This document shows positions 1 through 38,270 of a stretch of 38,270 nucleotides of DNA, piece after piece; position 1 is the stretch's first letter, and each line of letters opens with the position of its first letter. The notes beneath the pieces were generated by a model. That model had not been told where the DNA came from. It saw only the letters and a program-made list of their open reading frames with translations, and did not search any database. A program made the position numbers and the translations under genes. The DNA is from a virus. The DNA is taken from positions 1 to 38,270 of IMG/VR virus record IMGVR_UViG_3300023180_000158; one strand, given 5' to 3'.

Positions 1-2
1 GA

Positions 3-3000
3 AAGGGCCGTAAAACACAAATAGCAGGTGAAGTTGCCACAATGGTGACACTTTCTTCAGTGTTAGAAGGTCAAGTACCAACGCGTAAAGATTTTGCACA
101 TGCTGCAGTATTGATCTTTGGTATCCACTACGCAGGTAGCGGTATCAACAAACTGTACCATATCTACAAAACATACGGCATTCATCCGCGTGATATGCAA
201 ACGCTTGCAGAAAAGCGTGATGATGTAAAAGCAGACCTATTAGACCCCGATGTACAAGAACCCCGTGCATTAGGCGAACTTAACGAAGCCTTTATTAAGG
301 GTCTTGAAGAAGAAGCCAATATCAAATTGATTGAAGCACCTAAAGTAGAATTAGAGGCTAAAGTTGCTGTAGAAGGCTCTGGTTCAAGAGAAGGTATTGT
401 CAAAGCCCGTGAAGAAATCAACGGTGAGATTATTCTTAAAGTTGAGTTAGAAAATGGTGAAGTTGTACATGTTAAAGAAATTGATATTCAAACAGCACCT
501 AAAGCGGGTACTGAGCAAGTTACTGTAGGCAAAGACGGTAAGATTGAAATTACTGAAAGAGTTGAAACTAACTTCAAAGAACGTCAACAAAACGGTGAAT
601 ACAACACTGACATTGTTGAACTGCAAGTACCTAAAGAGCAATTATCAATCAAATGGAAAGAATCACCTGAAGAAATCAAGGTGCTTGATTCCACTATGGA
701 AACATACGTTGGTGAAGGCAGCGGTGGTTTTACAGCATTTGGTAGAGTAGAAGGCAATACCAAATACGTTATTGATACAACAGCATTTGGTAAAACATTT
801 GATTCTGGGTATAAAGCCCGTGCGCCACTAAGAGAAAGCCGTGATGGTAGCCCTGATGTGGTTATTGGTGAATGGGTATCGCAGCATGCACCAAAAGCAA
901 AAGAAACTGGCAGCCGTGTAGATGTAGTTTATGAAGTCACTAAAGATGGCCCATCAGGTGTTAAGGCAGATTCATACATTCTGCGTGACAACCAAGGTGG
1001 AATGTTTGCTATTCCAAAGGCTATTTATGAAGCAATACAGCAAACTAAATACATTAAAAGCGTAGATTACAAAGGCGTAACAGATTTTAAAACACCAGAG
1101 AAAACACAAATCCTATTAAGTGGTGATGTGTTGATGGTGCTTGACCAAAAGACAAGGCGTGTTGTTGCTGCATTTAAGACTGAAAAACTTAAAGGTCAGC
1201 CAGAACAACAAGCAACTAACTACTACAACACACATGTAGGTGCTAAAGACAAAGTATTTGCTGAATCAGACGTTAAAGGTGGAGCAGCAGAAGAACGTGT
1301 TTATAGCAGTAAAGGCGGTGAAGAATGGGGCGTACCTAACGAACCATCTACAGGTGGTGGTGCAGAAGTACCGCCAAACATGCCATTACTGAATTCACCA
1401 TACAAAAAATTTTACAACAACGCTAAAGGGCTAGATACATTTGATCTTGTTGAATTGGTGGAAATCCTAATTAACAAAACACCTGCAGTAGAAAAACTTG
1501 GCCCTACTCTGCGTGGTTACTTCCAGTTTGGTAAGAAAGGCAAACAAATGCCGATACCAAAGGAAGAACTAAAAGTTATTGTCAATCGTGCGTTGGCTGA
1601 AAATCCTAAAGATTTCACCATGACACTAGCGCATGAGATTGGACACCTAATTGACTACCTACCTCAAGAAACCATGAAGAAAGGTAACATTCTTGGCTCA
1701 ATGGCAGCCTTGAAAGGTTACTTGAACAAATGGATTGACGGTAAAGCAGACGGTGCAAAACCGTTAGAGCGTAAAGAAATCGAAGCCATGAAACGTGAGG
1801 CAGAGATTGAGGCCGCTAAGTTTGAGAAGAAGGTAGATAAAGAAATCACGGAAGACCTTAAAATTACTCCTCAAAAAATCCTCGACATCTTCCGTGACCC
1901 AGATATTAGAAATAAGATTGACCCTGAGTTTTATGAAGCGTTTGCTAAGTTAGACGGAAAACTCAAGAAGATGATTACGCGTAGTGCTATGCGAGGCATG
2001 ATTGACCCGCACATCAAAGCACTGGTTGATCGAATTAACGGCAAGAAACCATCAACTGAAGCAGAAGGTAAACTGTCTGAAGAAGCAGCAGAAATCTTTA
2101 AGCGTAAATTTGAAACTGAAATCCGTGAACGTGGATTGGTTAGCCGTGAAGAAATTACTACTGAATTAAAAGCACTATCACAGCAATGGAAACCATTTGA
2201 TAGAGCAGCAGACCCTAAATACACAGCATATCGTGATAATCCTAGGGAATTGATGGCTGACTTTATGATGGCGTTTTTGCTGCGTCCACAATGGACAATG
2301 GTCAACGCACCAAAGTCTTGGCAATTGTTTAACTATCACATGTACAAGCGTCCAGAAGTGAAGGCGCAGTATGAGAAGTTACAGAACCAAATTAACGCAG
2401 GTTCAGATGCACGTTACTCAGCAATGGTTACGCGTATCGCTAATAAATTTGTAGATAGTAAAACTCAAATCTTCAAAGGCATGGAAGAAGCATGGAAGCC
2501 TAACAGCCGTGATGCAATTGAGATTGATCTACTAGACACAATGGCTTGGTTCTACAGACGTTTTGGTGGACAAAACGGCATGTGGGGTAAGAACAAAACT
2601 GGTCAAAGCCGTTGGATGGACAAAGAAACGCTGAACCTAAATGCCCGTATGGAAAACTACAGGTATCGACATGCAGGTATGCAGCGTTATGCAGAAACAA
2701 TGGATGCTGAAGTAGTGCGACCAATAGAAGCAGCGGGTTACAACTCAAGCATGCTATCTGCTATGTTGTTGTTGCGTAACCTTGCGGTATCACAACAGCG
2801 TATGGGTAAAGCAAACCCAATGGGTCTATGGTCACAATTAAAGGCTATAGGCAAAGAAGGTGAAGCCATAATGAATGAGTTTGTAGGGGAGCGTACTCCA
2901 CTAGAGGCTTATCAATGGTTTGCTAAAGAACACCCACTACTAGACCAAGCAGCCACTAAATTTTATGAAATTCGTAAACGTTACTTACATCCATTGATTA

Positions 3001-5132
3001 AGGAAAGTGGTGCGTTTGACAAAGAAACACTTAACAAAATTCTGAACAACGAAGAATACATTACGTTCAATGTGTTGAAGTACGCTCTTGATAGATTGAA
3101 TAGATCAGGCGGTCAAAACATTTCATCTGCATCATTCAGTAAAAAGGCTGAAGGAACGTTGTCAGATATTGTTGACCCATTACTTGCTACGCTACAAAAA
3201 GACTTGCTCATTATGGGTGAGTTAAAGCGTAACCGTATGATTCACGATGCTATTCAATGGATGGGCAAAAACAAAGATTGGATTGAGTCATTTGATGCAG
3301 AAAAAATGGCTAAAGAAGTTGGAGGTCAATGGAAAGATAAGGTTGTTCAAAAAGCCAAGTATGTTGACAAAGGTAGAGTAGAACCTGCACCAGTAGGTAT
3401 GAAGACTGTTGCGTACATGCGTAACGGTAAATACGTTTACTATCACATCAATAAGTTTGCAGCCGTAGCATTTGAGCGTAATCCGCATGTAGCAATGCAG
3501 TGGATGAAGTACGTTCAATCGTCTAACAATTTCTTCAGAACCATCTATACAGAATACAACCCTAAATTCTGGCAAAAGAACACATTTAGAGATATTGGGC
3601 GTGCAGTTAGAAACTTGCCTAAAGCACGTTATTTCGACATAGCAGGCGGGTTTAAAAACTCATACGTCAAATATTTCTTTATGAACCTAAAGCCTACATG
3701 GAAGTCTATTTTTGGCGATAGGAAAGGTACAGAGTTAACACGTTGGATGGAAGAACAAGGTTTCCTAATTGCACAGGTAGAAGGCTATCGAGGCAAAGCA
3801 GGGGAAGCACACATTCAAAAACTGTTAGACAACAAGACCATTACGCCAGACCAGTATGTCACTGAAAAAATGATGCAGCGTCTTACTCCAAAAGAGTATG
3901 AGTCTTTGTATGACAGAACAATGGGCCGTTTTTTCCAACACATTAGTGACTTTGCTAAATTCTTGGAACGTGCGCCTAAAGTAGCGGGTGCTGCATATCT
4001 AAGAGATATGATTGCACGCGGTGAAATTAGCATGTCTACACAGGAAATGATGCTAAAAATACAAGCAGATGTAGGGTCACCTGCGTTCCTGCGTACTGCA
4101 CGGTATCATCAACTAACTAATAATATGCTGATATTCTCAAATGCTATGAAAGAAGGTATCAGGGCAGACTATGTAAGACTGCGTGAAGACCCATTGTCAG
4201 TCACAGGTAAATTTGTAGCCTACAACGTAGCACCTAAGGTGCTTCAGAAGATGATGAAATATGGTGTATTTGGTAGTGGACTGTACTGGTTCTACAAAGG
4301 CGTATCAGAATACGATGAGCAAAACTACATCGTCATTCCGATTGCTTACACCAAAGAAGGCAGACCAGTTTACTGGCGTATTCCACAGGACGAATCAGCC
4401 CGTGTGATGAATGGCTTTATTGGTCTTTTTATGGACGCTACCTTTGGTGAAGGTGAAATAGGCCCATCAAACTTCTTGAAAGCACTGGAAAGTGATGTAT
4501 TGCCTAGTATGAACCCAATCTTCCCATTCCTAAAAGATACAATAACCTTTGCTACTGGTGGCAATCCGCTTGATAATTTCAGGGGTGAGTACGCTTTAAA
4601 TGAAGATGTATGGAATGCACAGAATTCAGAAACCACCAAAGAAGCGTTAAAGTACATGTGGAATACTTATGGTGGTGGCAGTATCTACAGACTGCGTTCT
4701 GATGACCCAACAGAGATTGTTAGTGAATTAGAAGAAATATTGCGTATCCCACTAGCAGGTGAAATGGCAAATGTTTTTCTAAAGGTTGGCGAACATCCTG
4801 TTAAAATGGATATATACAAAGACCTGAAACTTTTGGACAGGGAAAAGAGCAGAGAAAACCTGATCTTTAGAGGTGCAATAAAAAAGATTTTAGACGCTAG
4901 TGATGAAAAATTAACGGTAGAAGAAATCACAGTGATTGCAAAAAGAAAAAATTATATTAAAAATAATACTTTATTGCGTAAGCAAATTGGTAAAGTATCA
5001 GGTGGAACGGATTTACTACAACTGCTATTGAGCGAAACAGATAGGAAGAAACAAGCGTTGATTATTAAAAACATACAAAACTTTGTTCAAGAAAACCCTA
5101 AAGATTTTCCACTGTTGTTTAGCGGGGAATAG
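3..5132 (+). CDS. Giant internal virion protein, C-terminal part (gene split by contig ends)
   Basis: This is the C-terminal two thirds of a gp16-like internal virion protein, expected to be ejected into the host cell with the DNA. The frame is open from the first codon; the ATG at 42 lies inside the terminal repeat and is not the true start. Joined to the frame at 36081-38270 the protein has about 2391 residues. A zincin motif HEIGH lies at 1632-1646 (residues 1226-1230 of the joined protein), and NPRELMADF about 200 residues later (E1431) could give the third zinc ligand. This part has no transglycosylase domain; that is in the N-terminal part. The remainder is long, helical and charged, typical of ejected proteins. 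The stop is followed by AGGAGGT and the tail-fibre gene 21 bases on. Zinc-peptidase activity is inferred from the motif only; the virion role follows from gene order. Confidence 0.85.
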   Translation, partial: KGRKTQIAGEVATMVTLSSVLEGQVPTRKDFAHAAVLIFGIHYAGSGINKLYHIYKTYGIHPRDMQTLAEKRDDVKADLLDPDVQEPRALGELNEAFIKGLEEEANIKLIEAPKVELEAKVAVEGSGSREGIVKAREEINGEIILKVELENGEVVHVKEIDIQTAPKAGTEQVTVGKDGKIEITERVETNFKERQQNGEYNTDIVELQVPKEQLSIKWKESPEEIKVLDSTMETYVGEGSGGFTAFGRVEGNTKYVIDTTAFGKTFDSGYKARAPLRESRDGSPDVVIGEWVSQHAPKAKETGSRVDVVYEVTKDGPSGVKADSYILRDNQGGMFAIPKAIYEAIQQTKYIKSVDYKGVTDFKTPEKTQILLSGDVLMVLDQKTRRVVAAFKTEKLKGQPEQQATNYYNTHVGAKDKVFAESDVKGGAAEERVYSSKGGEEWGVPNEPSTGGGAEVPPNMPLLNSPYKKFYNNAKGLDTFDLVELVEILINKTPAVEKLGPTLRGYFQFGKKGKQMPIPKEELKVIVNRALAENPKDFTMTLAHEIGHLIDYLPQETMKKGNILGSMAALKGYLNKWIDGKADGAKPLERKEIEAMKREAEIEAAKFEKKVDKEITEDLKITPQKILDIFRDPDIRNKIDPEFYEAFAKLDGKLKKMITRSAMRGMIDPHIKALVDRINGKKPSTEAEGKLSEEAAEIFKRKFETEIRERGLVSREEITTELKALSQQWKPFDRAADPKYTAYRDNPRELMADFMMAFLLRPQWTMVNAPKSWQLFNYHMYKRPEVKAQYEKLQNQINAGSDARYSAMVTRIANKFVDSKTQIFKGMEEAWKPNSRDAIEIDLLDTMAWFYRRFGGQNGMWGKNKTGQSRWMDKETLNLNARMENYRYRHAGMQRYAETMDAEVVRPIEAAGYNSSMLSAMLLLRNLAVSQQRMGKANPMGLWSQLKAIGKEGEAIMNEFVGERTPLEAYQWFAKEHPLLDQAATKFYEIRKRYLHPLIKESGAFDKETLNKILNNEEYITFNVLKYALDRLNRSGGQNISSASFSKKAEGTLSDIVDPLLATLQKDLLIMGELKRNRMIHDAIQWMGKNKDWIESFDAEKMAKEVGGQWKDKVVQKAKYVDKGRVEPAPVGMKTVAYMRNGKYVYYHINKFAAVAFERNPHVAMQWMKYVQSSNNFFRTIYTEYNPKFWQKNTFRDIGRAVRNLPKARYFDIAGGFKNSYVKYFFMNLKPTWKSIFGDRKGTELTRWMEEQGFLIAQVEGYRGKAGEAHIQKLLDNKTITPDQYVTEKMMQRLTPKEYESLYDRTMGRFFQHISDFAKFLERAPKVAGAAYLRDMIARGEISMSTQEMMLKIQADVGSPAFLRTARYHQLTNNMLIFSNAMKEGIRADYVRLREDPLSVTGKFVAYNVAPKVLQKMMKYGVFGSGLYWFYKGVSEYDEQNYIVIPIAYTKEGRPVYWRIPQDESARVMNGFIGLFMDATFGEGEIGPSNFLKALESDVLPSMNPIFPFLKDTITFATGGNPLDNFRGEYALNEDVWNAQNSETTKEALKYMWNTYGGGSIYRLRSDDPTEIVSELEEILRIPLAGEMANVFLKVGEHPVKMDIYKDLKLLDREKSRENLIFRGAIKKILDASDEKLTVEEITVIAKRKNYIKNNTLLRKQIGKVSGGTDLLQLLLSETDRKKQALIIKNIQNFVQENPKDFPLLFSGE
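21..146. repeat. Terminal direct repeat, left copy (circle overlap)
   Basis: These 126 bases are identical to 38145-38270. The 20 bases before them (1-20) also align with 38125-38144 but with 7 mismatches, most of them silent. The repeat is in the same reading frame at both ends, so joining the ends restores one uninterrupted gene. This indicates a circular or circularly permuted genome cut at an arbitrary point, not physical phage termini. Confidence 0.95.
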
Positions 5133-16719: not shown

Positions 16720-16748
16720 ATTATATTAACGTAGGTTACATAAGTCAA
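16720..16748 (-). promoter_or_regulatory. Sigma70 promoter of the leftward ssb-exonuclease block
   Basis: On the minus strand TTGACT (16748-16743), a 17-base spacer and TATAAT (16725-16720), close to consensus. The predicted start near 16713 gives a ~30-base leader with AAGGAGC. Two overlapping copies of the TTRAC-N4-GTYAA element fill its spacer and -35 box, so a bound repressor would block it. Confidence 0.85.
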
Positions 16749-16808
16749 GCAATTTGTTGACATAAGTTAAACAGGACTGTATTATACTTATAAGTTAACG
16801 AAGGTTAT
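16726..16808. promoter_or_regulatory. Operator cluster between ssb and cro
   Basis: Copies of a 14-bp element with half-sites TTRAC and GTYAA separated by 4 bases: 16726-16739 (TTAAC GTAG GTTAC), 16735-16748 (GTTAC ATAA GTCAA), 16757-16770 (TTGAC ATAA GTTAA), a weak 16785-16798 (TACTT ATAA GTTAA) and 16795-16808 (TTAAC GAAG GTTAT). Adjacent half-sites recur every 9 bases. Together they cover both divergent promoters. Likely bound by the adjacent Cro-like protein; the match to that protein is inference. Confidence 0.75.
16757..16785 (+). promoter_or_regulatory. Sigma70 promoter of the cro-like gene
   Basis: TTGACA (16757-16762), a 17-base spacer, TATTAT (16780-16785). An overlapping TATACT at 16783 is an alternative -10. 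The -35 is also the left half-site of an operator copy. Predicted start near 16792, leaving a ~20-base leader with AAGG before ATG 16814. Confidence 0.8.
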
Positions 16809-16813
16809 GACAA

Positions 16814-17053
16814 ATGAGTTTATTGTACGAACTTGCTAAAGAGCGAAAGACTGAGATTGTTGCCAAATATGGCGGCAGGAACTTGGCACGTTTGTTGAAT
16901 ATTAGCCATCCTGCTGTATCAAAATGGCAGGTAGTACCGCAACTGCGTGCTTACCAAATTGCAGATTTAGGTGACTTTGATCTAAACTACATCAGACCTG
17001 ATCTTGCTAACGAAATTGCCCCGCCGCCGCAGGGGGTAGACCATCAGGCTTAG
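16814..17053 (+). CDS. Cro/YdaS-like helix-turn-helix repressor
   Basis: 79 residues. Residues ~18-48 (KYGGRNLARLLNISHPAVSKWQ) form a helix-turn-helix of the P22 Cro / YdaS type, with the typical VSKW turn and V.P...AYQI just after it. The C-terminus is short and has no peptidase domain, so it is Cro-like and not a self-cleaving CI. It is divergent to ssb, with an operator cluster between them, and is followed at once by a strong terminator, so it is a single-gene unit. No CI partner and no integrase is present, so it probably times expression in a lytic or pseudo-temperate cycle. Confidence 0.88.
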   Translation: MSLLYELAKERKTEIVAKYGGRNLARLLNISHPAVSKWQVVPQLRAYQIADLGDFDLNYIRPDLANEIAPPPQGVDHQA

Positions 17054-17072
17054 GTTAAAAATACTAGCGGCA

Positions 17073-17116
17073 GGGAGGTAAGGCTTTTCTCATTGTTGGC
17101 CTGCCTCCCTTTTTTT
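17073..17116 (+). terminator. Intrinsic terminator after cro-like gene
   Basis: GGGAGGTAAGGC (17073-17084) pairs with GCCTGCCTCCC (17099-17109) as an 11-bp stem with one bulged base and one G-T pair, a 14-base loop, and a run of seven T (17110-17116). It separates the repressor gene from the origin and replication genes. Confidence 0.92.
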
Positions 17117-17126
17117 ACCCATAAAG

Positions 17127-17159
17127 TATGGCAATGCTATGGCAATGCTATGGCAACGC
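17127..17159 (+). repeat. Three tandem 11-bp iterons
   Basis: TATGGCAATGC at 17127-17137, an identical copy at 17138-17148, and TATGGCAACGC (one T to C change) at 17149-17159. Eleven bases is about one helical turn, so the copies face the same side of the DNA. Lies 180 bases upstream of the first replication gene. Confidence 0.9.
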
Positions 17160-17200
17160 CAATGGTTAACCATGTTTTTGCTAATGGCAAAAGTATCCCC

Positions 17201-17236
17201 TTCATCTTCACCTTCATCTTCACCTTCACCTTCAAC
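17201..17236 (+). repeat. Hexamer TTCAYC repeat (six units)
   Basis: Two copies of TTCATCTTCACC (17201-17212, 17213-17224), then TTCACC and TTCAAC. One strand is all purine apart from the T of each complementary unit, so strand bias is strong. It may be a second initiator or primase site, or a melting element, within the proposed origin. Confidence 0.85.
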
Positions 17237-17280
17237 TGCACCCAAGATAGAGCAGACAGAAGCCAACCTTAATTTGGTTG

Positions 17281-17309
17281 TTGACATAGGTTAACATCAC
17301 AGGTATATT
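17281..17309 (+). promoter_or_regulatory. Replication-operon promoter with operator
   Basis: TTGACA (17281-17286), a 17-base spacer, TATATT (17304-17309); predicted start near 17316 and AGG five bases before ATG 17339. The operator element TTGAC ATAG GTTAA (17281-17294) includes the -35 box, as at the cro promoter. Confidence 0.83.
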
Positions 17310-17338
17310 AAGTCATTAACAAAAATTAACAGGCAACA

Positions 17339-17731
17339 ATGAGAAAACGACAGACACATGAACAATCGCCTGCGTTCCAGTTTTACGCAAACGATTGGAT
17401 TAGCGAACCAAACAGAATGAGGATGACGCTTGAAGAACAAGGCGCATACATTCTGCTTTACTGTCATTGTTGGCGCGGATTCAAAATACCATTTGATTAC
17501 GAAGTCATGGCTAGGATGTGTAACTGCACGATTGAGAAGGTCAAGAAGATGTGGCCTAACATGCAGGACATGTTTGAACAGGTCAAAGACAAAAGCGGTG
17601 GTATTTATTTGATCTGTCTGCAAGCAGAAGAAGAACGCAAGGAACAGGCAGAGAACCGTAAGAAGCGTCAAGCAGCAGGCAGAAAAGGTGCAGAAAAACG
17701 ATGGGGTAAGGATGAGGTACAACCCGAATAG
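17339..17731 (+). CDS. DUF1376-family replication protein
   Basis: 130 residues. FQFYANDWISEPNRMRMTLEEQGAYI and the following WRGFKIPFD are the DUF1376 (YdaU-like) signature; this family often precedes or is fused to phage replication initiators. The C-terminus is very basic and Ala-rich (RKKRQAAGRKGAEKRWG), suited to DNA binding. First gene after the proposed origin, so it is a candidate initiator that recognises the iterons; that assignment is inference. Its end overlaps the primase start by 20 bases. Confidence 0.85.
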   Translation: MRKRQTHEQSPAFQFYANDWISEPNRMRMTLEEQGAYILLYCHCWRGFKIPFDYEVMARMCNCTIEKVKKMWPNMQDMFEQVKDKSGGIYLICLQAEEERKEQAENRKKRQAAGRKGAEKRWGKDEVQPE

Positions 17732-18536
17732 TCACTATGCTGTATTCATAGAAGCATTTGGAACACACCATAGTTTCCAAACGTTCTGCGACAAAGGCAA
17801 GAATCGCAGGATTATTAGACAATTACATGGCACACTTGAGGAACACCTTGAAGAACTATGGTCACTGAACAAGCAGGGTGCGGGTGTATTTTTCACTGTC
17901 AATCAGACTGATTTGCAAGGCAGGACTACAAAGAACATCACCAAAATTAGGTCAGTGTTCATTGATTTGGATGGTGCGCCATTGCCTGATAAGTTTGATC
18001 TGCAGCCCAACATCATCCTCAACACATCACCTAACAAATACCATTGCTATTGGTTAGTGGATGACATGCCAATCGAATCATTCACTTTGTATCAACAAGC
18101 ATTGGCTGCAAAGTTTAATTCAGACCCAGTTGTCAAAGACCTGCCGCGTGTGATGCGGATTGCAGGCTTTTTCCACAACAAATCAAAACCGTATCCAATC
18201 AAAATAGTCAAAGCGACATCTATAGATACGCCATACAAAATGGCAGAGATTCGTGACGGATTAGGGTTACAAAGACCACAGAAACCTGTGATTAGATCAG
18301 ACTACAAGCCTTCTATGTACCAAGGTAAATACTCAGGCACGCTTAGATATGGTGTGGGTGAGGGTGATAGACATGCTGCGTTAGTCAAGATGCTCATTGC
18401 TATACGGATGAGGGGTGAGTCAGAAGACTATGCGCGTGATGAAGCACTGAAGTTTGCCAACGCGTGTAACCCACCTGAAGACCACAATGAAGTGTTGTTT
18501 CAGGTAAAAGATATTTGGAGTAGATATGCGCCTTAG
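17712..18536 (+). CDS. RepB-like DNA primase
   Basis: 274 residues from ATG 17712 behind GGGGTAAGG; an in-frame GTG at 17688 is possible. VFIDLDG (82-88) carries the catalytic acidic pair, followed by ILNTSPNKYHCYWLVD (102-117) and RVMRIAGFFHNK (146-157), the motif set of the RepB-type archaeo-eukaryotic primase fold. The C-terminus (~210-274, GEGDRHAALVKMLIA) resembles a PriCT primase-accessory domain. It should make primers at the phage origin for host polymerase. Overlaps the helicase by 11 bases. Confidence 0.9.
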   Translation: MRYNPNSHYAVFIEAFGTHHSFQTFCDKGKNRRIIRQLHGTLEEHLEELWSLNKQGAGVFFTVNQTDLQGRTTKNITKIRSVFIDLDGAPLPDKFDLQPNIILNTSPNKYHCYWLVDDMPIESFTLYQQALAAKFNSDPVVKDLPRVMRIAGFFHNKSKPYPIKIVKATSIDTPYKMAEIRDGLGLQRPQKPVIRSDYKPSMYQGKYSGTLRYGVGEGDRHAALVKMLIAIRMRGESEDYARDEALKFANACNPPEDHNEVLFQVKDIWSRYAP

Positions 18537-20022
18537 AGATTACCAAGAAATAGCATTGGAAAACCTGCGGGAGTCAATGCGTGTAGGCAACAAACGAATA
18601 CTGTTAGTTGCTCCAACGGGTAGCGGTAAGACTGTGATTGCCAGTGCCATGATACAAGCAGCAGAACAACGATTGAAAAACTGTCTGTTTGTTGCACATA
18701 GACGGGAACTGGTGAACCAATGTTCAGATAAATTACGTCAATTTGATGTATCACATGGCGTGTTGATGGCAGGTAGGTCAGGCAACATAGGTGCAAGGAC
18801 ACAAGTTGCCAGTATTCAGACCTACACAATTCGCAAAGACAACAAATATTTTATGAAGCCCCGTGCAGACTTGATTATTCTGGATGAAGCACACCGTTCA
18901 GTCAGCAAGTCATTCCAAGATTTAATTAACGAGTATCCAGATGCCTATGTGATTGGCCTGACTGCTACACCTGTACGCAATGATGGCAAAGGTTTGGGTG
19001 GTGTCTATGATGATCTTGTTGAATGCGGAAACATACGCAAGTTGACCAGTGAAGGTTACCTTGTTCCTAACCGTGTTGTTGCACCGACTATGCCAGACTT
19101 GCAAGGTCTGAAGATTATGGCAGGTGATTATGAGAAGCGCGGCCTAAACACACGAATGAATAAACCTAAGTTAGTGGGTGACTTGGTTACGCATTGGATA
19201 CGACATGCAGAGAACAGACCAACGGTTGTCTTTGCTACATCTATTGCCCATAGCAGGTTCATAGCCAAAATCTTCAAAGACAACGGCATTCCTGCAGGTC
19301 ATGTAGATGGTGAAATGGATGAGTTGGAACGTGAAACTGTGCTGCATGATTTACATACTGGCAAAATCAAAGTGCTATCCAACTGTCAGGTTTTGACGGA
19401 AGGTTGGGATGAACCTAAAGTGTCATGCGTTGTCCTTGCCAGACCAACGAAATCGTATGGCATGTATCTGCAGATGGTGGGTAGATCATTACGCCCGTTT
19501 GAAGGCAAGGATGACACCTTAATCATTGACCATGCAGGCTGCGTTTATGAACACGGATTCCCTGAAGATGTACCTGAATGGGAACTTACGGAAGATAAAA
19601 TTACCAGACCTAAAAAGAAATCCACACCCATTGAAAAGCAGCCGTTCACCTGCACTCAATGCAATGCTGTGTATCAGCCCACCAGAGTCTACAGAACTTG
19701 CCCTGTGTGTGGTCACGCACCAACGGAAGCAGACAAAAAAGTTTTAATAAAGCAAGGCAGATTGGTTGAACTTGAGAAAGCCAAGGACGAAATCACAGCA
19801 CAAAACAAACAGGATTTTTACGCGCAACTTTTGTATCACTCTAAGCAAAAAGGATACAAGCAAGGTTGGGCAGATTGGACATTCAAAGAAAAGTTTGGGC
19901 ATTTTCCTCACAGCAAACGCGTGATGCCAATGCCTGTAGGTGATGAGGTCAAAGGCTTCCTGCGTCATCTTCAAATCAAAAAAGCCAAATCAAATGGGGG
20001 TGCTTATGTCGGAAGACGCTAA
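18526..20022 (+). CDS. Superfamily 2 DNA helicase
   Basis: 498 residues. Walker A APTGSGKT (29-36), DEAH box (120-123), motif III GLTATP, and motif VI QMVGRSLRP (316-324) define a DEAD/DEAH SF2 helicase of the ResIII/RadD type. A zinc ribbon follows (C376, C379, C392, C395), as in RadD-like helicases, then a C-terminal domain with GWADWTFKEKFGHFP, also typical of that group. It probably unwinds replication or recombination intermediates together with the primase. No hexameric replicative helicase is present. Overlaps the next gene by 17 bases. Confidence 0.92.
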   Translation: MRLRDYQEIALENLRESMRVGNKRILLVAPTGSGKTVIASAMIQAAEQRLKNCLFVAHRRELVNQCSDKLRQFDVSHGVLMAGRSGNIGARTQVASIQTYTIRKDNKYFMKPRADLIILDEAHRSVSKSFQDLINEYPDAYVIGLTATPVRNDGKGLGGVYDDLVECGNIRKLTSEGYLVPNRVVAPTMPDLQGLKIMAGDYEKRGLNTRMNKPKLVGDLVTHWIRHAENRPTVVFATSIAHSRFIAKIFKDNGIPAGHVDGEMDELERETVLHDLHTGKIKVLSNCQVLTEGWDEPKVSCVVLARPTKSYGMYLQMVGRSLRPFEGKDDTLIIDHAGCVYEHGFPEDVPEWELTEDKITRPKKKSTPIEKQPFTCTQCNAVYQPTRVYRTCPVCGHAPTEADKKVLIKQGRLVELEKAKDEITAQNKQDFYAQLLYHSKQKGYKQGWADWTFKEKFGHFPHSKRVMPMPVGDEVKGFLRHLQIKKAKSNGGAYVGRR

Positions 20023-20693: not shown

Positions 20694-21029
20694 TTACAAC
20701 TGGCTGTATTTTAGTGCGTAACCATCACCATACAGCAGATGACTCAGTTGATAGATCACATGGAAACCCATATCCATTCCACCACCTGAAACACCCATGC
20801 AACTGGTTTTGTCTTTGAATTTGTATTCCAGTGCATCACACATCAAGCGCGTCAACCAGTATTTGACAATCCTGTCCTCGCCTTCTCTAAATTCATCCTT
20901 GATGTCAAACTTGTGGAAATCCAGATGCCTATACGCACCGCTGTTTGATACCTGTTTGACGATATAGTAAATGGTATCACCTTTGTTGATGATTTCCTTC
21001 AGTTGTTCGATTGCTTTTGCTTTGCTCAT
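20694..21029 (-). CDS. Conserved phage hypothetical protein, GMDMGFHV family
   Basis: 111 residues. The C-terminal GGGMDMGFHVIYQLSHLLYGDGYALK is a strongly conserved motif in a widespread phage protein family without known function; the N-terminal half has TIYYIVKQVSNSGAYRHLDF. Last of seven coupled leftward genes; its stop abuts the stop of the Ref-like gene. Start overlaps the preceding stop (ATGA). Confidence 0.85.
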   Translation of the reverse strand: MSKAKAIEQLKEIINKGDTIYYIVKQVSNSGAYRHLDFHKFDIKDEFREGEDRIVKYWLTRLMCDALEYKFKDKTSCMGVSGGGMDMGFHVIYQLSHLLYGDGYALKYSQL

Positions 21030-21184
21030 TGTTTCATTTCCTTTCTTCTATTTGATTCGATAGCGTGCCAAATGTTTATCACGCCCCATAATGCGACTAT
21101 GATTGCATCCAGACTCGCCCCATCCCATGCAAGGAACAGGGCAAGAGTCCAGATGAATCCGCTTAACATAAAACGCCAGATCAC
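21026..21184 (-). CDS. Small membrane protein
   Basis: 52 residues if it begins at GTG 21184, whose GTGA overlaps the upstream stop; an ATG at 21169 would give 47. I prefer the GTG because every neighbour starts by such an overlap. Two hydrophobic segments, FMLSGFIWTLALFLAW and DAIIVALWGVINIW, form a helical hairpin, with a basic C-terminus (ESNRRKEMKQ). Function unknown. Confidence 0.7.
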   Translation of the reverse strand: MIWRFMLSGFIWTLALFLAWDGASLDAIIVALWGVINIWHAIESNRRKEMKQ

Positions 21185-21387: not shown

Positions 21388-21965
21388 TACTGCTCCTTCC
21401 CTAGTTTCATATCTAGCAACGTTGTAAGGTCATGGTATGCAGACGATTGATGTGCGCCTACGTTCCAATCCGTTATATCCTCAACATCAAGGCCATCTGT
21501 GCCACAGTAGGCTTTTCCGTTCTTCCAGTTGTAGACAGTGAACACACGACCATCAGGAAACTTGAAAGCCCATTCACGGTCAATCTTATCCTCTGCACCT
21601 GCTCGCGGCATGTACACAAAATGCGGTTCGCCAAACACTTCAACCAGTTGCGCGTATGTGCGCTTGATGTGTCCGTGTAGGTGTGTGCCGCCTGTTTCTG
21701 TGGTCTTTTTGATGTCAGTGATGTGACGGTATTCCCTGTCCTGCATTTCAAAATGCAGCATTGTGGCAATATCTGCCGCCTTGTCCTTGTTGTAGGTCAC
21801 CAGTGCTTCAGCGAACCACTCAATTTCCTGCTTTGTAAACGTTGCAACATCTTCAGCCGTTTTACTCACCATGAACTGCGTTTCAGCCTGTGCCGATTGC
21901 ATGTCATACGATGAAGTGTCAAGACCTTCGATGTAATCCCAGTTTGCGTTTTTTGTTTTGCTCAT
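21387..21965 (-). CDS. Conserved phage hypothetical protein, 192 residues
   Basis: Start ATG 21965 is chosen for its ATGA overlap with the upstream gene. The C-terminal half (WAFKFPDGRVFTVYNWKNGK, then DITDWNVGAHQ) matches a phage family with the pattern W...F.DG...IYDWK...W.IGG whose role is unknown. The N-terminus is polar; the middle holds KKTTETGGTHLHGHI. It looks like an early accessory protein. Confidence 0.82.
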   Translation of the reverse strand: MSKTKNANWDYIEGLDTSSYDMQSAQAETQFMVSKTAEDVATFTKQEIEWFAEALVTYNKDKAADIATMLHFEMQDREYRHITDIKKTTETGGTHLHGHIKRTYAQLVEVFGEPHFVYMPRAGAEDKIDREWAFKFPDGRVFTVYNWKNGKAYCGTDGLDVEDITDWNVGAHQSSAYHDLTTLLDMKLGKEQ

Positions 21966-22168
21966 TGTTTTCCTTCCTCTGTTGTTGTTGATAAAAAGCA
22001 ATATTTAGGTTTTTTGATGTCAAAGATGTCTTCCAACTCGCCAACCTCATCAAACCCATACAATACAAACCCATCCTGCGGGTCTGTTCCCTTCTCATAC
22101 ACAACAAGATCGCACCCGCTAGGGATGCAACCTTGAAATGTGTTGATGTTCTCAATGTCGATACGCAT
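21962..22168 (-). CDS. Small acidic hypothetical protein
   Basis: 68 residues, acidic, with ENINTFQGCIPSGCDLVVYE and FVLYGFDEVGELEDIFDI. Not recognised. The spacing of beta-like segments resembles small early phage proteins. Starts by a TAATG overlap and ends by an ATGA overlap. Confidence 0.7.
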   Translation of the reverse strand: MRIDIENINTFQGCIPSGCDLVVYEKGTDPQDGFVLYGFDEVGELEDIFDIKKPKYCFLSTTTEEGKQ

Positions 22169-22691: not shown

Positions 22692-22711
22692 GTTGTTTAC
22701 CTCATTGTTGT

Positions 22712-22754
22712 TTAACGTAGGTTAATTATATAACACATTCCAGAGTGTACGCAA
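22712..22754 (-). promoter_or_regulatory. Promoter and operator of the leftward accessory operon
   Basis: Minus strand: TTGCGT (22754-22749), an 18-base spacer, TATAAT (22730-22725). The operator element TTAAC GTAG GTTAA (22712-22725) lies at the predicted start site and touches the -10. The -35 is imperfect, the -10 is consensus. Confidence 0.75.
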
Positions 22755-23527: not shown

Positions 23528-23586
23528 TTAACGTAAGTTAACGCATAGGACATTGGGGTTGTGCTAGGTTAATTTTCGGGTATAGT
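23528..23586 (+). promoter_or_regulatory. Promoter with two operator copies before the nuclease gene
   Basis: Operator TTAAC GTAA GTTAA (23528-23541) and a second, TTGTG CTAG GTTAA (23559-23572). The latter overlaps a possible -35 TTGTGC (23559-23564), 16 bases before TATAGT (23581-23586). As at terS, the ATG (23594) is only seven bases after the -10. Confidence 0.65.
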
Positions 23587-34213: not shown

Positions 34214-36081
34214 TGAAAATACCTCGTTATACAAGTAACTTAGGTTCAGCACCAATTCAAAGCGGTAGATCGCTAACTACAGGTGTTGGCAGCGCACAAG
34301 GCATGGCTAACTTGGGTAAAACCATGTTGGATTCTATTACGCAATTTGCGGCTGCTAAACAAGAAATTGAACTGAAACTGCGTGACCAAGAGATTACTAA
34401 TCTTAAAACATTGGCTGAAGGCGATAGTCTTATGGCGGCTAATGACTTTAATTTTGGTTTAGAGCAACGTAAAGACTACAACAATTTTCAACCTGACTAT
34501 GATGGTATGTGGAACAAACATACTGCTAAAGTCAAAAAAGATAGGTTTACTGATAAAAAAGGTAATTTTGACCAATATGCTTGGGAACAATACGAACCGT
34601 TCCATAACAAAGCATACATGCAGGGTAAAGTTGCTGTACAAGGAAATATATCTAAAGCGCGTAATGCTCAGTCTGTAACGGCTTACAATACTAATTATGA
34701 CGCTACAACGAAATCTATTGAAACATCGACATCTGTAGCACAAGTAACAGGTAACTGGCAGGAATGGGAAAACGGCACATTTGCTAAATATTCTGGTCTT
34801 GCAACATTTGACCAAGGAACATTGGCTACTGGCTATGATGAACTATTAGCCAAAAGTAACAATCAGATGATGTTATTGCAGTCTGGTGAAAATGGTAAAA
34901 CACCTATTTACAAAAACCCACAAGGCGTAACAGCAACAGATTGGTCAAAAGTAGCAGAACGTGCTGCAGACCCAACTGTCAAAATGTATGACGTACAGGG
35001 CAATGAACTTACTGTAGATGACCCTGCGCGTGCTGATTTTATTAAAAATGCACAGCAAAAGTCTGCTGAACAAGATACGTTTGATACTAACCAAATTGCT
35101 GTAAATGACAGAAATACATCAGACAGTTTTAATGCTAGGTTAGGTAAGGTCTACACTGGCGTACCTGATGCTACATTTATGGAAGATGTAAACAAATCAA
35201 ATCTATCAGGTGACCAGAAGAAAAAACTTAACGCAGATTATCTAGCGGCTATTAAAGCACTTAAAGACAAAACTAAATATTGGGATACTGCAGAAGGTCA
35301 GCAAACAGACGCTATTGTAACTGCAATGGTGTTAAGTGGTGCTATTGATACTGAAGAAGAAAAATCAGTTGTTTTGAAATTAGTTGCTGAAGGTAAGATA
35401 AAGCCTACAAGGGGCGATACGCTTGTTGGAACAATTGAGAAGCAACAAAAAGATGCTAATGCACACAAAGTATCAATGTACAAAAATGCTATAAAAGTAG
35501 TGCTAAAAGAAGCAGGCGCAGACCCTAATTTAATGGATGCAATACAAGGTCAAAATCTTGACGCTCAAAACGTAGACAGTGTACTTGCATCAATCTTTGG
35601 TAGTGGCGTAGATGCTACTGCATACACTGCTGTCAATAATTTGACACGATTGATTGCTGAAGGTGAGAAAAAAGGCATATCTATGTCAGATATGTTGCTG
35701 AACACTAAAAGCCCTCATTACATCATCAATGACATTGTTCAGGTGTACAAAGATCAAGTTAAGACTGACAAGATCAGAAACTATGAAGCCAAAGCAAAAG
35801 CCTTTATCAGTGCAGATGAAGACACTAAAAAGTTTGGCGATTACAGAATTGACCCTGTGGGTTGGGCAAATTACCAAACATCGGTACAAACAACCAATAC
35901 ACAGAATCAAGTACCCCCTAGAGGTGATAATGAAAGCATCAATGATTATCTTTTGAGATTACAGGCTTGGAATAAAAAACAAGCACAATCTAAGACAGGC
36001 TTGCCATCATTTATGCAAAGTGATGTAGTAGGCGGTACTAGCACTCAAAATATGATCGTTTTACCTACAGGGAATGAATAA
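34213..36081 (+). CDS. Internal virion protein, T7 gp15-like
   Basis: 622 residues, mostly charged helices (ITQFAAAKQEIELKLRDQEI, KKKLNADYLAAIKALKDK), few cysteines, Asn/Asp-rich. No domain recognised. Assigned as gp15-like from its place between gp14-like and gp16-like genes and one-base TAATG overlaps with both. It would form part of the ejected periplasmic tunnel. Confidence 0.83.
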   Translation: MKIPRYTSNLGSAPIQSGRSLTTGVGSAQGMANLGKTMLDSITQFAAAKQEIELKLRDQEITNLKTLAEGDSLMAANDFNFGLEQRKDYNNFQPDYDGMWNKHTAKVKKDRFTDKKGNFDQYAWEQYEPFHNKAYMQGKVAVQGNISKARNAQSVTAYNTNYDATTKSIETSTSVAQVTGNWQEWENGTFAKYSGLATFDQGTLATGYDELLAKSNNQMMLLQSGENGKTPIYKNPQGVTATDWSKVAERAADPTVKMYDVQGNELTVDDPARADFIKNAQQKSAEQDTFDTNQIAVNDRNTSDSFNARLGKVYTGVPDATFMEDVNKSNLSGDQKKKLNADYLAAIKALKDKTKYWDTAEGQQTDAIVTAMVLSGAIDTEEEKSVVLKLVAEGKIKPTRGDTLVGTIEKQQKDANAHKVSMYKNAIKVVLKEAGADPNLMDAIQGQNLDAQNVDSVLASIFGSGVDATAYTAVNNLTRLIAEGEKKGISMSDMLLNTKSPHYIINDIVQVYKDQVKTDKIRNYEAKAKAFISADEDTKKFGDYRIDPVGWANYQTSVQTTNTQNQVPPRGDNESINDYLLRLQAWNKKQAQSKTGLPSFMQSDVVGGTSTQNMIVLPTGNE

Positions 36082-38270
36082 TGGCAATAGGGATTACAGC
36101 ATCACAACTTAAAGCAGCAGGCTTTGATGATGAATCTATCCTAGGTCATATTGATGAGCAAAGACCCCTACTAAAACAAGCAGGGTTTTCTGACAATCAA
36201 ATTGATAAATTCTACGGTATTGAACGTACTACTGTTGCGCCATTGACTGATGGTGACGTTCATCCGCTGCATCAATCAGTAAATACTGAAGGCGAATCAC
36301 TTAACGCAGGTCAAGATGTAAGTAAGACTTGGGCAGAAAAGCAGGCTGAAAAGAACCCAAGTAGTGCAAATGCAAGTAATAAAGTTAACAATTCATCTAT
36401 TACGGATGAAAACAAGCCAATCAAAGAAGGTGACAGTGTTAACTTTAGTGCAAATAAAGCCATTACATCAACAGATCAAATCATAAACAACAAATCTAGT
36501 TTAGTGCCGTTTCAGAACGTACCTACACCAGATTACAACACGCAGTTATTTCAAACGATTGCTGAACAACAAGCAGCAAAAGAAAAAACTGAAGCCGAAA
36601 TGAAGGAAAAAGGTCTGATTTACTATGACCAATTATCCGATAGCGAAAGAAAAATTTATAACAGAAATCGTAAAAAACCTGTGCGTGATGGTCAACAGAT
36701 GGGTGTCATCTACAGACCAACAGAAGATGCAAAGATACCTATTCTAAATACTACGGTAACTACTGGGCCTAGCAGTATGCTAGTGCTTAATTCCATCAAA
36801 AACGCACAAAGCCTAGAAGATGATGATGTAGGCACACTGAACGAATTTGTATCATTTATTGCCAGTATTGAATCAGGCAACCGTAATATCTATAACGAAG
36901 CAGGCACAAAAGGCGGTGTATTCCAACTGTCTAATGAAGAAATGCCTAGTTTGCTTAATTATTACGGTAATGTGGCAAAAGCAAGTAATCCAGATTGGAA
37001 GATGCCAAAATGGATGGAACTGGCTTATACGCATAAAGACCCTACAAAACTATCACTAGATGCCCAACGTGCATTGGCGTTGATTAAAATATCAATGAAC
37101 CCTGAAGCACAGGCATATATCTTGAAAGGTGCTAGGGGTGATAAAGATGCACTGACTGCGCTGTACACAGATTACTATAACCCTGCGCCTAAAACAGAAT
37201 TTGTTGTAGATCAAAAAAAATTGGCTGCATGGGAAGCAAAAAACGAAGATTTCCTAAAACGTTCTGATAATCAAACAGCAATTGCCAAGTCTTTGTTAGA
37301 TCAAATTGACAACAATATAGGCGATGTAGAAAAAGCAAAAGAATCACTTGCTTATCAAGAAGAATTGTTAAAAGGCTTAAAGAAAGAAAATGAGGCTTTA
37401 GAGGCTGAGTACAAAGAAATAACAGGTGCAAATTTTGTGCCTCAAAAGGGGCGTGATGAAACTATATTCAAAGAACGTGTAAATTCATTTATGGGTTCGT
37501 GGAATACTTTGAATTATGAGTATTCTTTACCAGAACTTGCTACATGGTCTTCATCAAACCTAAGACCAGAAGATGATGATTGGTGGATTACCAAATACAT
37601 CAAGGATTCAAGCGTAGGTAAGAAGTTTATTAAATACACTGGTGGTGCGGGTGATCGAAACGTATTTGGCGCAGGTTACCAACTATCTACACTAGGTCTT
37701 ATTGAGGCATACCACACTGCAGTAACAGTAGACGATATAGACCCACAACAAGCCTATGAACAAATCTTTATGCACCAAGCACAGAATTTCCCACAAGAAA
37801 TAGTGCAAAGTGCCGTTACGCTAGTAAATGACCTACCTGTTATGGGCCTAGGTTTTGTTGGTGGATTAGGTATTGGTGCGGGAACAACAGCCGCCACTGG
37901 TGGTGCTGCAGCCCCCGCGACTCCCTTTATAGCAATGGGAACAGCGTTTGGTCTACCAGAAACTATCCGTGATGTTTACATGCGTGCCATGATGAATGGT
38001 GAAGTCAACGATTTTGATGAATTGCTTGATGAAATCATGCGTGTGCAGACACTAAAAACATTTGGTAAATACACAACTGTAGGTGCTGCAACATACGGTA
38101 CAGGTAAATACATTAAAGGATTAGGCGGTGGACGTAAGACACAGATAGCAGGTGAAGTTGCCACAATGGTGACACTTTCTTCAGTGTTAGAAGGTCAAGT
38201 ACCAACGCGTAAAGATTTTGCACATGCTGCAGTATTGATCTTTGGTATCCACTACGCAGGTAGCGGTATC
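36081..38270 (+). CDS. Giant internal virion protein, N-terminal part with transglycosylase-like domain
   Basis: 730 codons open to the window end; continues at 147 after the circle overlap to give ~2391 residues (T7 gp16 has 1318). Residues 1-45 (LKAAGFDDESILGHIDEQ) are a small repeat-like segment seen in phage internal proteins. Residues ~255-370 resemble a lytic transglycosylase: FVSFIASIESG (putative catalytic E264), KGGVFQLS, YYNPAP. A coiled coil follows (~397-450), then a Gly/Ala-rich hydrophobic region (~578-627) that could insert in a membrane. The domain should open peptidoglycan for DNA entry, as in T7 gp16. Start overlaps the upstream stop by one base. Confidence 0.88.
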   Translation, partial: MAIGITASQLKAAGFDDESILGHIDEQRPLLKQAGFSDNQIDKFYGIERTTVAPLTDGDVHPLHQSVNTEGESLNAGQDVSKTWAEKQAEKNPSSANASNKVNNSSITDENKPIKEGDSVNFSANKAITSTDQIINNKSSLVPFQNVPTPDYNTQLFQTIAEQQAAKEKTEAEMKEKGLIYYDQLSDSERKIYNRNRKKPVRDGQQMGVIYRPTEDAKIPILNTTVTTGPSSMLVLNSIKNAQSLEDDDVGTLNEFVSFIASIESGNRNIYNEAGTKGGVFQLSNEEMPSLLNYYGNVAKASNPDWKMPKWMELAYTHKDPTKLSLDAQRALALIKISMNPEAQAYILKGARGDKDALTALYTDYYNPAPKTEFVVDQKKLAAWEAKNEDFLKRSDNQTAIAKSLLDQIDNNIGDVEKAKESLAYQEELLKGLKKENEALEAEYKEITGANFVPQKGRDETIFKERVNSFMGSWNTLNYEYSLPELATWSSSNLRPEDDDWWITKYIKDSSVGKKFIKYTGGAGDRNVFGAGYQLSTLGLIEAYHTAVTVDDIDPQQAYEQIFMHQAQNFPQEIVQSAVTLVNDLPVMGLGFVGGLGIGAGTTAATGGAAAPATPFIAMGTAFGLPETIRDVYMRAMMNGEVNDFDELLDEIMRVQTLKTFGKYTTVGAATYGTGKYIKGLGGGRKTQIAGEVATMVTLSSVLEGQVPTRKDFAHAAVLIFGIHYAGSGI
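38145..38270. repeat. Terminal direct repeat, right copy
   Basis: Identical to 21-146 (126 bases, offset 38124). The preceding 20 bases differ from the left end at 7 positions while keeping the protein frame (residues GGRKTQIA here, KGRKTQIA at the left). The window ends within the codon frame of the giant internal protein. Confidence 0.95.

Follow-up and report, generated by a model that had tools for sequence, protein, structure and literature searches.

A probable iteron-type replication origin upstream of a DUF1376 gene in a marine phage

The region between cro and the DUF1376 operon

The window, that is, the whole stretch of DNA analysed, is a virus record of 38,270 bases from a marine phage. 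Among isolated phages, Pelagibacter phage Baldr is the closest to it, with DNA about 67% identical over 45% of the query region. At each end of the record (1-5132 and 36081-38270) the sequence breaks off within a single reading frame of great length, as would be seen if a circularly permuted, near-complete genome had been opened in a giant gene, which was likened to the 2,330-codon protein of Baldr. The genes around the region of interest are the following:

16814-17053, plus strand: cro-like repressor gene (P22_Cro, PF14549, E 1.7e-11)
17339-17731, plus strand: DUF1376 protein of 130 aa, proposed origin-binding initiator (PF07120, E 2.4e-7; PHROG primosomal protein)
17688-18536, plus strand: RepB-type primase (PF16793, E 1.6e-11)
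18526-20022, plus strand: superfamily 2 DNA helicase (PF04851 and phrog_16)

An earlier, sequence-only reading had placed a set of repeats in empty DNA ahead of the DUF1376, primase and helicase genes, and the gene calls agreed that the region from cro to DUF1376 is intergenic. A candidate origin module made of iterons, an inverted repeat, a hexamer array and a CAAGATA box was delimited there, at 17127-17249:

17127-17159, plus strand: three 11-bp iterons TATGGCAAYGC (consensus NATRGCNNNGC), seen as tandem 11-mers in the sequence
17160-17181, plus strand: two more, diverged units, CAATGGTTAAC and CATGTTTTTGC, assigned from the 11-bp phasing in relatives
17176-17192, plus strand: inverted repeat TTTTGCTAATGGCAAAA, the part of the module that relatives conserve best
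17201-17242, plus strand: strand-asymmetric hexamer array (TNCANC)7
17243-17249, plus strand: CAAGATA box at the end of the module, conserved in relatives

The three iterons (TATGGCAATGC twice, then TATGGCAACGC with a single change) constitute the strongest lag-11 repeat of the entire 38-kb record, and a 16-base version of the hexamer array with two mismatches allowed was matched 6 times in the window vs 0.14 expected. The three in-phase repeats and the array of seven units were thus where the sequence-only reading had described them, but the phased set goes further than the three units that it counted, as six 11-bp units run from 17127 to 17192 and terminate in the conserved inverted repeat, which it had not listed. 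The 12-bp palindrome ATGGTTAACCAT that it included is present at 17162-17173, mostly within the unit CAATGGTTAAC, but lies outside the conserved element. The AT content of the iteron part and of the array was 54-60%, the AT-rich stretch being the promoter (17275-17325).

Promoters and Cro-type operators

The segment originally proposed, 17117-17280, contains the module, while the bases beyond it (17281-17329) hold the promoter of the DUF1376 and primase genes with two Cro-type operators. The sites found on this and the neighbouring promoters were:

16726-16739, no strand: Cro-type operator TTAACGTAGGTTAC within the leftward promoter (16748-16720, minus strand), by operator motif
16757-16770, no strand: Cro-type operator on the -35 of the cro promoter (16757-16785), by operator motif
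16795-16808, no strand: operator-like TTAACGAAGGTTAT 3' of the cro promoter, fitting TTAAC-N4-GTTAa
17281-17309, plus strand: promoter of the DUF1376-primase-helicase operon, with operator TTGACATAGGTTAA at 17281-17294
17316-17329, no strand: operator-like TTAACAAAAATTAA downstream of the DUF1376-operon promoter, with a similar site in L004-L012

The operator TTRACNNNNGTTAM had 9 matches in the window vs 0.66 expected, and operators of the form TTAAC-N4-GTTAA were located on the cro, leftward and DUF1376-operon promoters, plus at 22712 and 23528. The latter two are perfect palindromic operator-like sites, TTAACGTAGGTTAA (22712-22725) and TTAACGTAAGTTAA (23528-23541), far from cro; the first of them adjoins a leftward promoter region.

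Conservation of the module in relatives

For the comparison of conservation, 78 primase relatives were fetched from IMG/VR. Nearly all those with enough upstream DNA had one module, in the arrangement cro - module - DUF1376, and the order of its parts was iterons, inverted repeat TTTTGCYAATGGCAAAA, seven bases, YCTTC, hexamer array, CAAGATA and promoter. The array was found in a single copy per contig, on the coding strand of DUF1376. One contig, L003, was identical to the window over the cro-DUF1376 intergenic region and represented it in part of the comparisons. The module was retained down to about 55-60% primase identity; the repeats therefore persist in relatives that keep the replication genes, as the sequence-only reading had asked to be checked. 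Its other check, GC skew, spoke neither for nor against an origin, and the skew was rejected as evidence, since across the window it follows the direction of transcription.

In the noncoding modules NATRGCNNNGC was counted 49 times, in 29 of the 32 modules, vs 1.2 in shuffled sequences. The ends of the units in 29 diverse modules kept to an 11-bp phase with one-base slips, as 37 and 29 fell at two adjacent phases vs 0-4 at each of the other nine. By contrast with the rest of the module, the palindrome ATGGTTAACCAT was absent from relatives except for the near-identical contig L003/L081/L188, so that its proposed role as a component of the origin was rejected.

Some variation was detected among the modules. 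The sequence of the array changes, being TATACC-like in L064 and purine-rich in some of the cases embedded in genes that are described below. In L069 (3900-4180), (GTAA)n repeats stand in place of the hexamer array and CAAGATA is retained. A tRNA-like insert (GGTGTTGTAGTTCAACGG...), judged by eye, lies between the cro terminator and the iterons in L014 and L015. Extra genes were found between the promoter and DUF1376 in L026 and L002, with the module unbroken.

Association of the module with DUF1376

In the relatives L037 and L054 cro, primase and helicase are kept, and both DUF1376 and the module are missing, the primase lying directly 3' of cro (L037, 5610-5901; L054, 4029-4303); neither has the array, and in L054 DUF1376 is missing across 34.6 kb. 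As these two phages are related (84-88% identical over long stretches), their joint absence counts as one event. The module was missing only where the DUF1376 gene was missing, as in these two, or where the upstream flank was unavailable. In L064 the module adjoins DUF1376 and cro is located elsewhere.

A scan of IMG/VR with the pattern of the inverted repeat matched 67 viral contigs, and all those with enough downstream DNA (63/63) had a DUF1376 gene on the same strand further downstream. In L172 and L213 the inverted repeat was inside a longer DUF1376 gene, and the remaining two had too little downstream sequence. Among contigs of bacterial genomes one of four matches (L229) had the same arrangement; the other three, without array or DUF1376, were dismissed as chance.

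Iterons within DUF1376 genes

Full-length DUF1376 genes were gathered from viruses and gammaproteobacterial genomes, and 26 dissimilar genes were scored. NATRGCNNNGC was embedded in frame in 21 of them (36 copies), right after a GA..RW motif and about 340 nt past the start of the gene; 1000 codon shuffles gave 0.96 copies on average and never more than 5. Phased pairs in tandem amounted to 27 vs 0.085 in codon shuffles, and the lag-11 identity of the embedded region reached z = 11 against the same control. Since a unit of 11 does not fit a whole number of codons, this periodicity points to the DNA, and not the peptide, as the object of selection. The embedded iterons are usually followed by a low-complexity array, as in the window. 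The presence of the iteron inside DUF1376 genes of unrelated phages ties it to the DUF1376 protein rather than to cro or the promoter.

Direct searches of phage databases returned only Baldr and three distant DUF1376 phages; in the two of the latter that were inspected, from Plectonema and Paracoccus, the iteron was not clearly visible. The most distant member inspected was ydaU of the Rac prophage, with repeats of its own in the linker, where other DUF1376 genes hold the iterons. These TGTTCAAACA/TGTTTGAACA-like repeats lie in L331 at 4999-5120, and those like TGTTCAAACA numbered 7 vs 0.27 in codon shuffles, an optimistic figure because the pattern was chosen after viewing the sequence. Rac has an active origin, oriJ (PMC3945230), for which the linker repeats are a candidate location.

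The DUF1376 protein

DUF1376 is a widespread phage domain without known function, and its family is classed as primosomal in PHROGs. The protein of the window scored 31.5 bits with the PF07120 profile, over the curated cut-off of 30.1. No sequence match to the RepA_N profile (PF06970) was detected in it, DUF1376 alone being found, nor any match to the Phage_rep_O (lambda O) profile; a PDB sequence search with the DUF1376 profile yielded weak matches to unrelated proteins and nothing else, and no family for DUF1376 proteins was found in NCBIfam. In the literature searched, mostly at the level of titles and abstracts, no work on an origin role of DUF1376 was found.

An AlphaFold model of the protein (mean pLDDT 80.7) was compared with folds in the PDB, and six of the nine best matches were RepA_N plasmid initiators (4pql, 4pta, 4pt7 and 5kbj (iteron DNA)), with weak scores (E 5e-3 to 2.5e-2, TM about 0.46). 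Among viral models, the matches were other DUF1376 proteins, a phage replisome organiser, RepL and RepA-type proteins.

Interpretation of the module as a replication origin

What the comparison of sequences shows is a module with an 11-bp phase and a link with DUF1376, the joint absence of both, and the in-frame embedding elsewhere. Two traits by which an iteron-type origin is recognised were found, as several phased direct repeats are present (six 11-bp units, with the phase test) and they lie next to or inside the proposed initiator gene and are lost with it. The module at 17127-17249 is very probably the replication origin, with DUF1376 as its initiator. In this, the proposal of the sequence-only reading gains support from conservation, co-absence and embedding in DUF1376 genes, its palindrome apart.

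In the mechanism that we propose, DUF1376, as a putative small winged-helix protein, would bind the 11-bp phased iterons and the terminal inverted repeat along one face of the helix. The hexamer array beside them, with its strand asymmetry, would be where DUF1376 opens or marks the DNA. The RepB-type primase and the superfamily 2 helicase from the same operon would then be loaded at the array. Because the operon promoter bears Cro-type operators, Cro would be expected to shut off synthesis of the initiator through them.

Alternatively, the iterons and the inverted repeat could be an operator by which DUF1376 (or Cro) controls its own promoter, with the origin elsewhere. The position of the module in the window clade, 30-150 bp upstream of the operon promoter, would suit such a role, but an operator for a promoter is implausible where the iterons lie some 340 nt inside the DUF1376 gene, the Cro sites have a different motif (TTAAC-N4-GTTAA), and in L026 and L002 the extra genes part the promoter from DUF1376 and leave the module intact. 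We regard this explanation as unlikely.

A role of the pyrimidine-rich TTCAYC array in Rho utilisation, to stop transcription reading through from cro and unrelated to replication, is very unlikely. Lambda has a Rho-type termination site, tR1, after cro, and in favour of this reading the strand between cro and the next operon is C-rich and G-poor here; however, where other phages have the array within the DUF1376 gene its counterpart is translated, in some lineages that counterpart is purine-rich, and the array accompanies DUF1376 and not cro, so that this reading was disfavoured. Finally, that the array with ATGGCAAAA would be a small coding gene (MAKVSPSSSPSSSP...), on the grounds of a frame that in the window has no stop over about 36 codons starting at 17185, is extremely unlikely and was rejected, as the frame stops after three codons in L008 and L012, is broken by indels in L053 and L074 and is a different one in L048 and L050.

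If the module is the origin and DUF1376 its initiator, an origin-binding function could be assigned to this domain, and NATRGCNNNGC in an 11-bp phase, just after GA..RW or just upstream of the gene, would be a recognisable marker by which the replication origins of many marine and proteobacterial phages and prophages that are uncultured could be located from the sequence. The DUF1376 modules would also be a test case for the movement of an origin out of, or into, the initiator gene.

A putative antisense RNA from the cro terminator

The hairpin that follows cro carries a loop complementary to the start of DUF1376, and its core recurs at leftward gene starts:

17072-17117, plus strand: terminator of the cro transcript (hairpin, then T run), proposed as a regulatory RNA of its 3' end (fold -21.4 kcal/mol, z -2.2)
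17085-17098, plus strand: loop of the hairpin, UUUUCUCAUUGUUG, antisense to the DUF1376 start region over 14 nt without mismatch (reverse complement of 17334-17347)
17334-17347, plus strand: antisense target CAACAATGAGAAAA over the DUF1376 start codon, complementary to the loop at 17085-17098
21025-21033, minus strand: AACAATGAG at a leftward gene start, possible target of the loop RNA (matches loop core)
21961-21969, minus strand: AACAATGAG at a leftward gene start, possible target of the loop RNA (matches loop core)
22701-22709, minus strand: AACAATGAG in the leader of the first leftward gene, possible target of the loop RNA (matches loop core)

The sequence AACAATGAG is common to the DUF1376 start and these three leftward starts or leaders, and the loop core CTCATTGTT occurs five times in the window, including the loop itself, vs 0.74 expected. 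In L055, two leftward starts, GGAGGATAGACAATG, match the loop of that contig.

Hairpins were present in the same position, after cro, in relatives, and in those of the same group the loop matched its target over 10-14 bases. Both sides have changed together in L090 (loop TTTTCATTGTTTC, target GAAACAATGA). In two other lineage groups the complementary pairs are quite different in sequence from that of the window: the loop of L014, TTTCCTTATC, pairs with GATAAGGA in the ribosome-binding region, and that of L052/L055/L059, TCTATCTTCC, pairs with GGATAGA or AAGGTAG. The hairpins were located by a local-hairpin method and the loops then set by hand, by eye, which weakens the comparison between families. 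With such loops, a loop's own target beat all the targets of other groups for 4 of 7 loops in family A (the closest), 3/3 in family C and 3/3 in family F, although the pairing in L031, of family C, was weak (-4.3 kcal/mol), no better than with shuffled loops and thus of little weight; the preference was not clear in the rest of A, nor in B, D, E and G.

A loop complementary to a translation start that recurs with a different sequence, as expected of a 3'-end antisense RNA, was therefore found with these hand-set loops, and we propose that loop and target diverge among lineages while their complementarity is kept. There is about an even chance that the cro mRNA ends in a regulatory RNA that pairs with the start of the initiator gene and with the three leftward early starts in the window. 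Such an RNA would damp the initiator and limit the initiation of replication, and a single transcript would act on the early genes twice, through the repressor of their promoters that it encodes and by blocking their translation. This would make the DUF1376 system also a test case for RNA control of a phage initiator. As the loops were chosen by eye, this finding is weaker than that of the origin.

Comparison with known replication systems

In lambda the iterons are inside the initiator gene O, downstream of cro, under Cro control. The DUF1376 genes with embedded iterons share this arrangement, whereas in the window the iterons are upstream of the DUF1376 gene and it is in other DUF1376 phages that they are inside it. 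Lambda iterons have another length and sequence than those of DUF1376, and primase and helicase are phage-encoded here, whereas lambda P loads the host DnaB.

The RepA_N initiators, those of pSK41 and pTZ2162 and PLE RepA, have a winged-helix N-terminal domain that is the nearest solved fold to DUF1376, with a weak likeness. In pSK41 the origin is part of rep, with central iterons that encode a dispensable linker (PMC5703833), much as full-length DUF1376 genes also carry iterons within the initiator gene, and the RepA of the Vibrio cholerae PLE binds repeats at its own origin (PMC7145576). However, DUF1376 differs from RepA_N in its sequence, which does not match PF06970, in its 11-bp phased NATRGCNNNGC iterons and, in the window clade, in consisting of the N-terminal domain only, with the candidate origin in noncoding DNA upstream. 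The Rep of pSK41 is under antisense-RNA control (PMC5703833), whereas the antisense RNA proposed here would come from the cro terminator and is not a counter-transcript. The ydaU gene of the E. coli Rac prophage, likewise annotated as DUF1376, has its own repeat cluster in the linker, of another sequence than NATRGCNNNGC.

Short strand-asymmetric direct repeats beside initiator sites are found in the DnaA-trio, the ATCA repeats of Vibrio cholerae ori2 and the 13-mers of RK2 (PMC10797057). The array of the window has a different unit, TNCANC, and its position suggests a similar role in origin opening. The best reading of these likenesses is that an iteron origin with DUF1376 would resemble lambda O/ori and pSK41 rep/ori, in another protein family.
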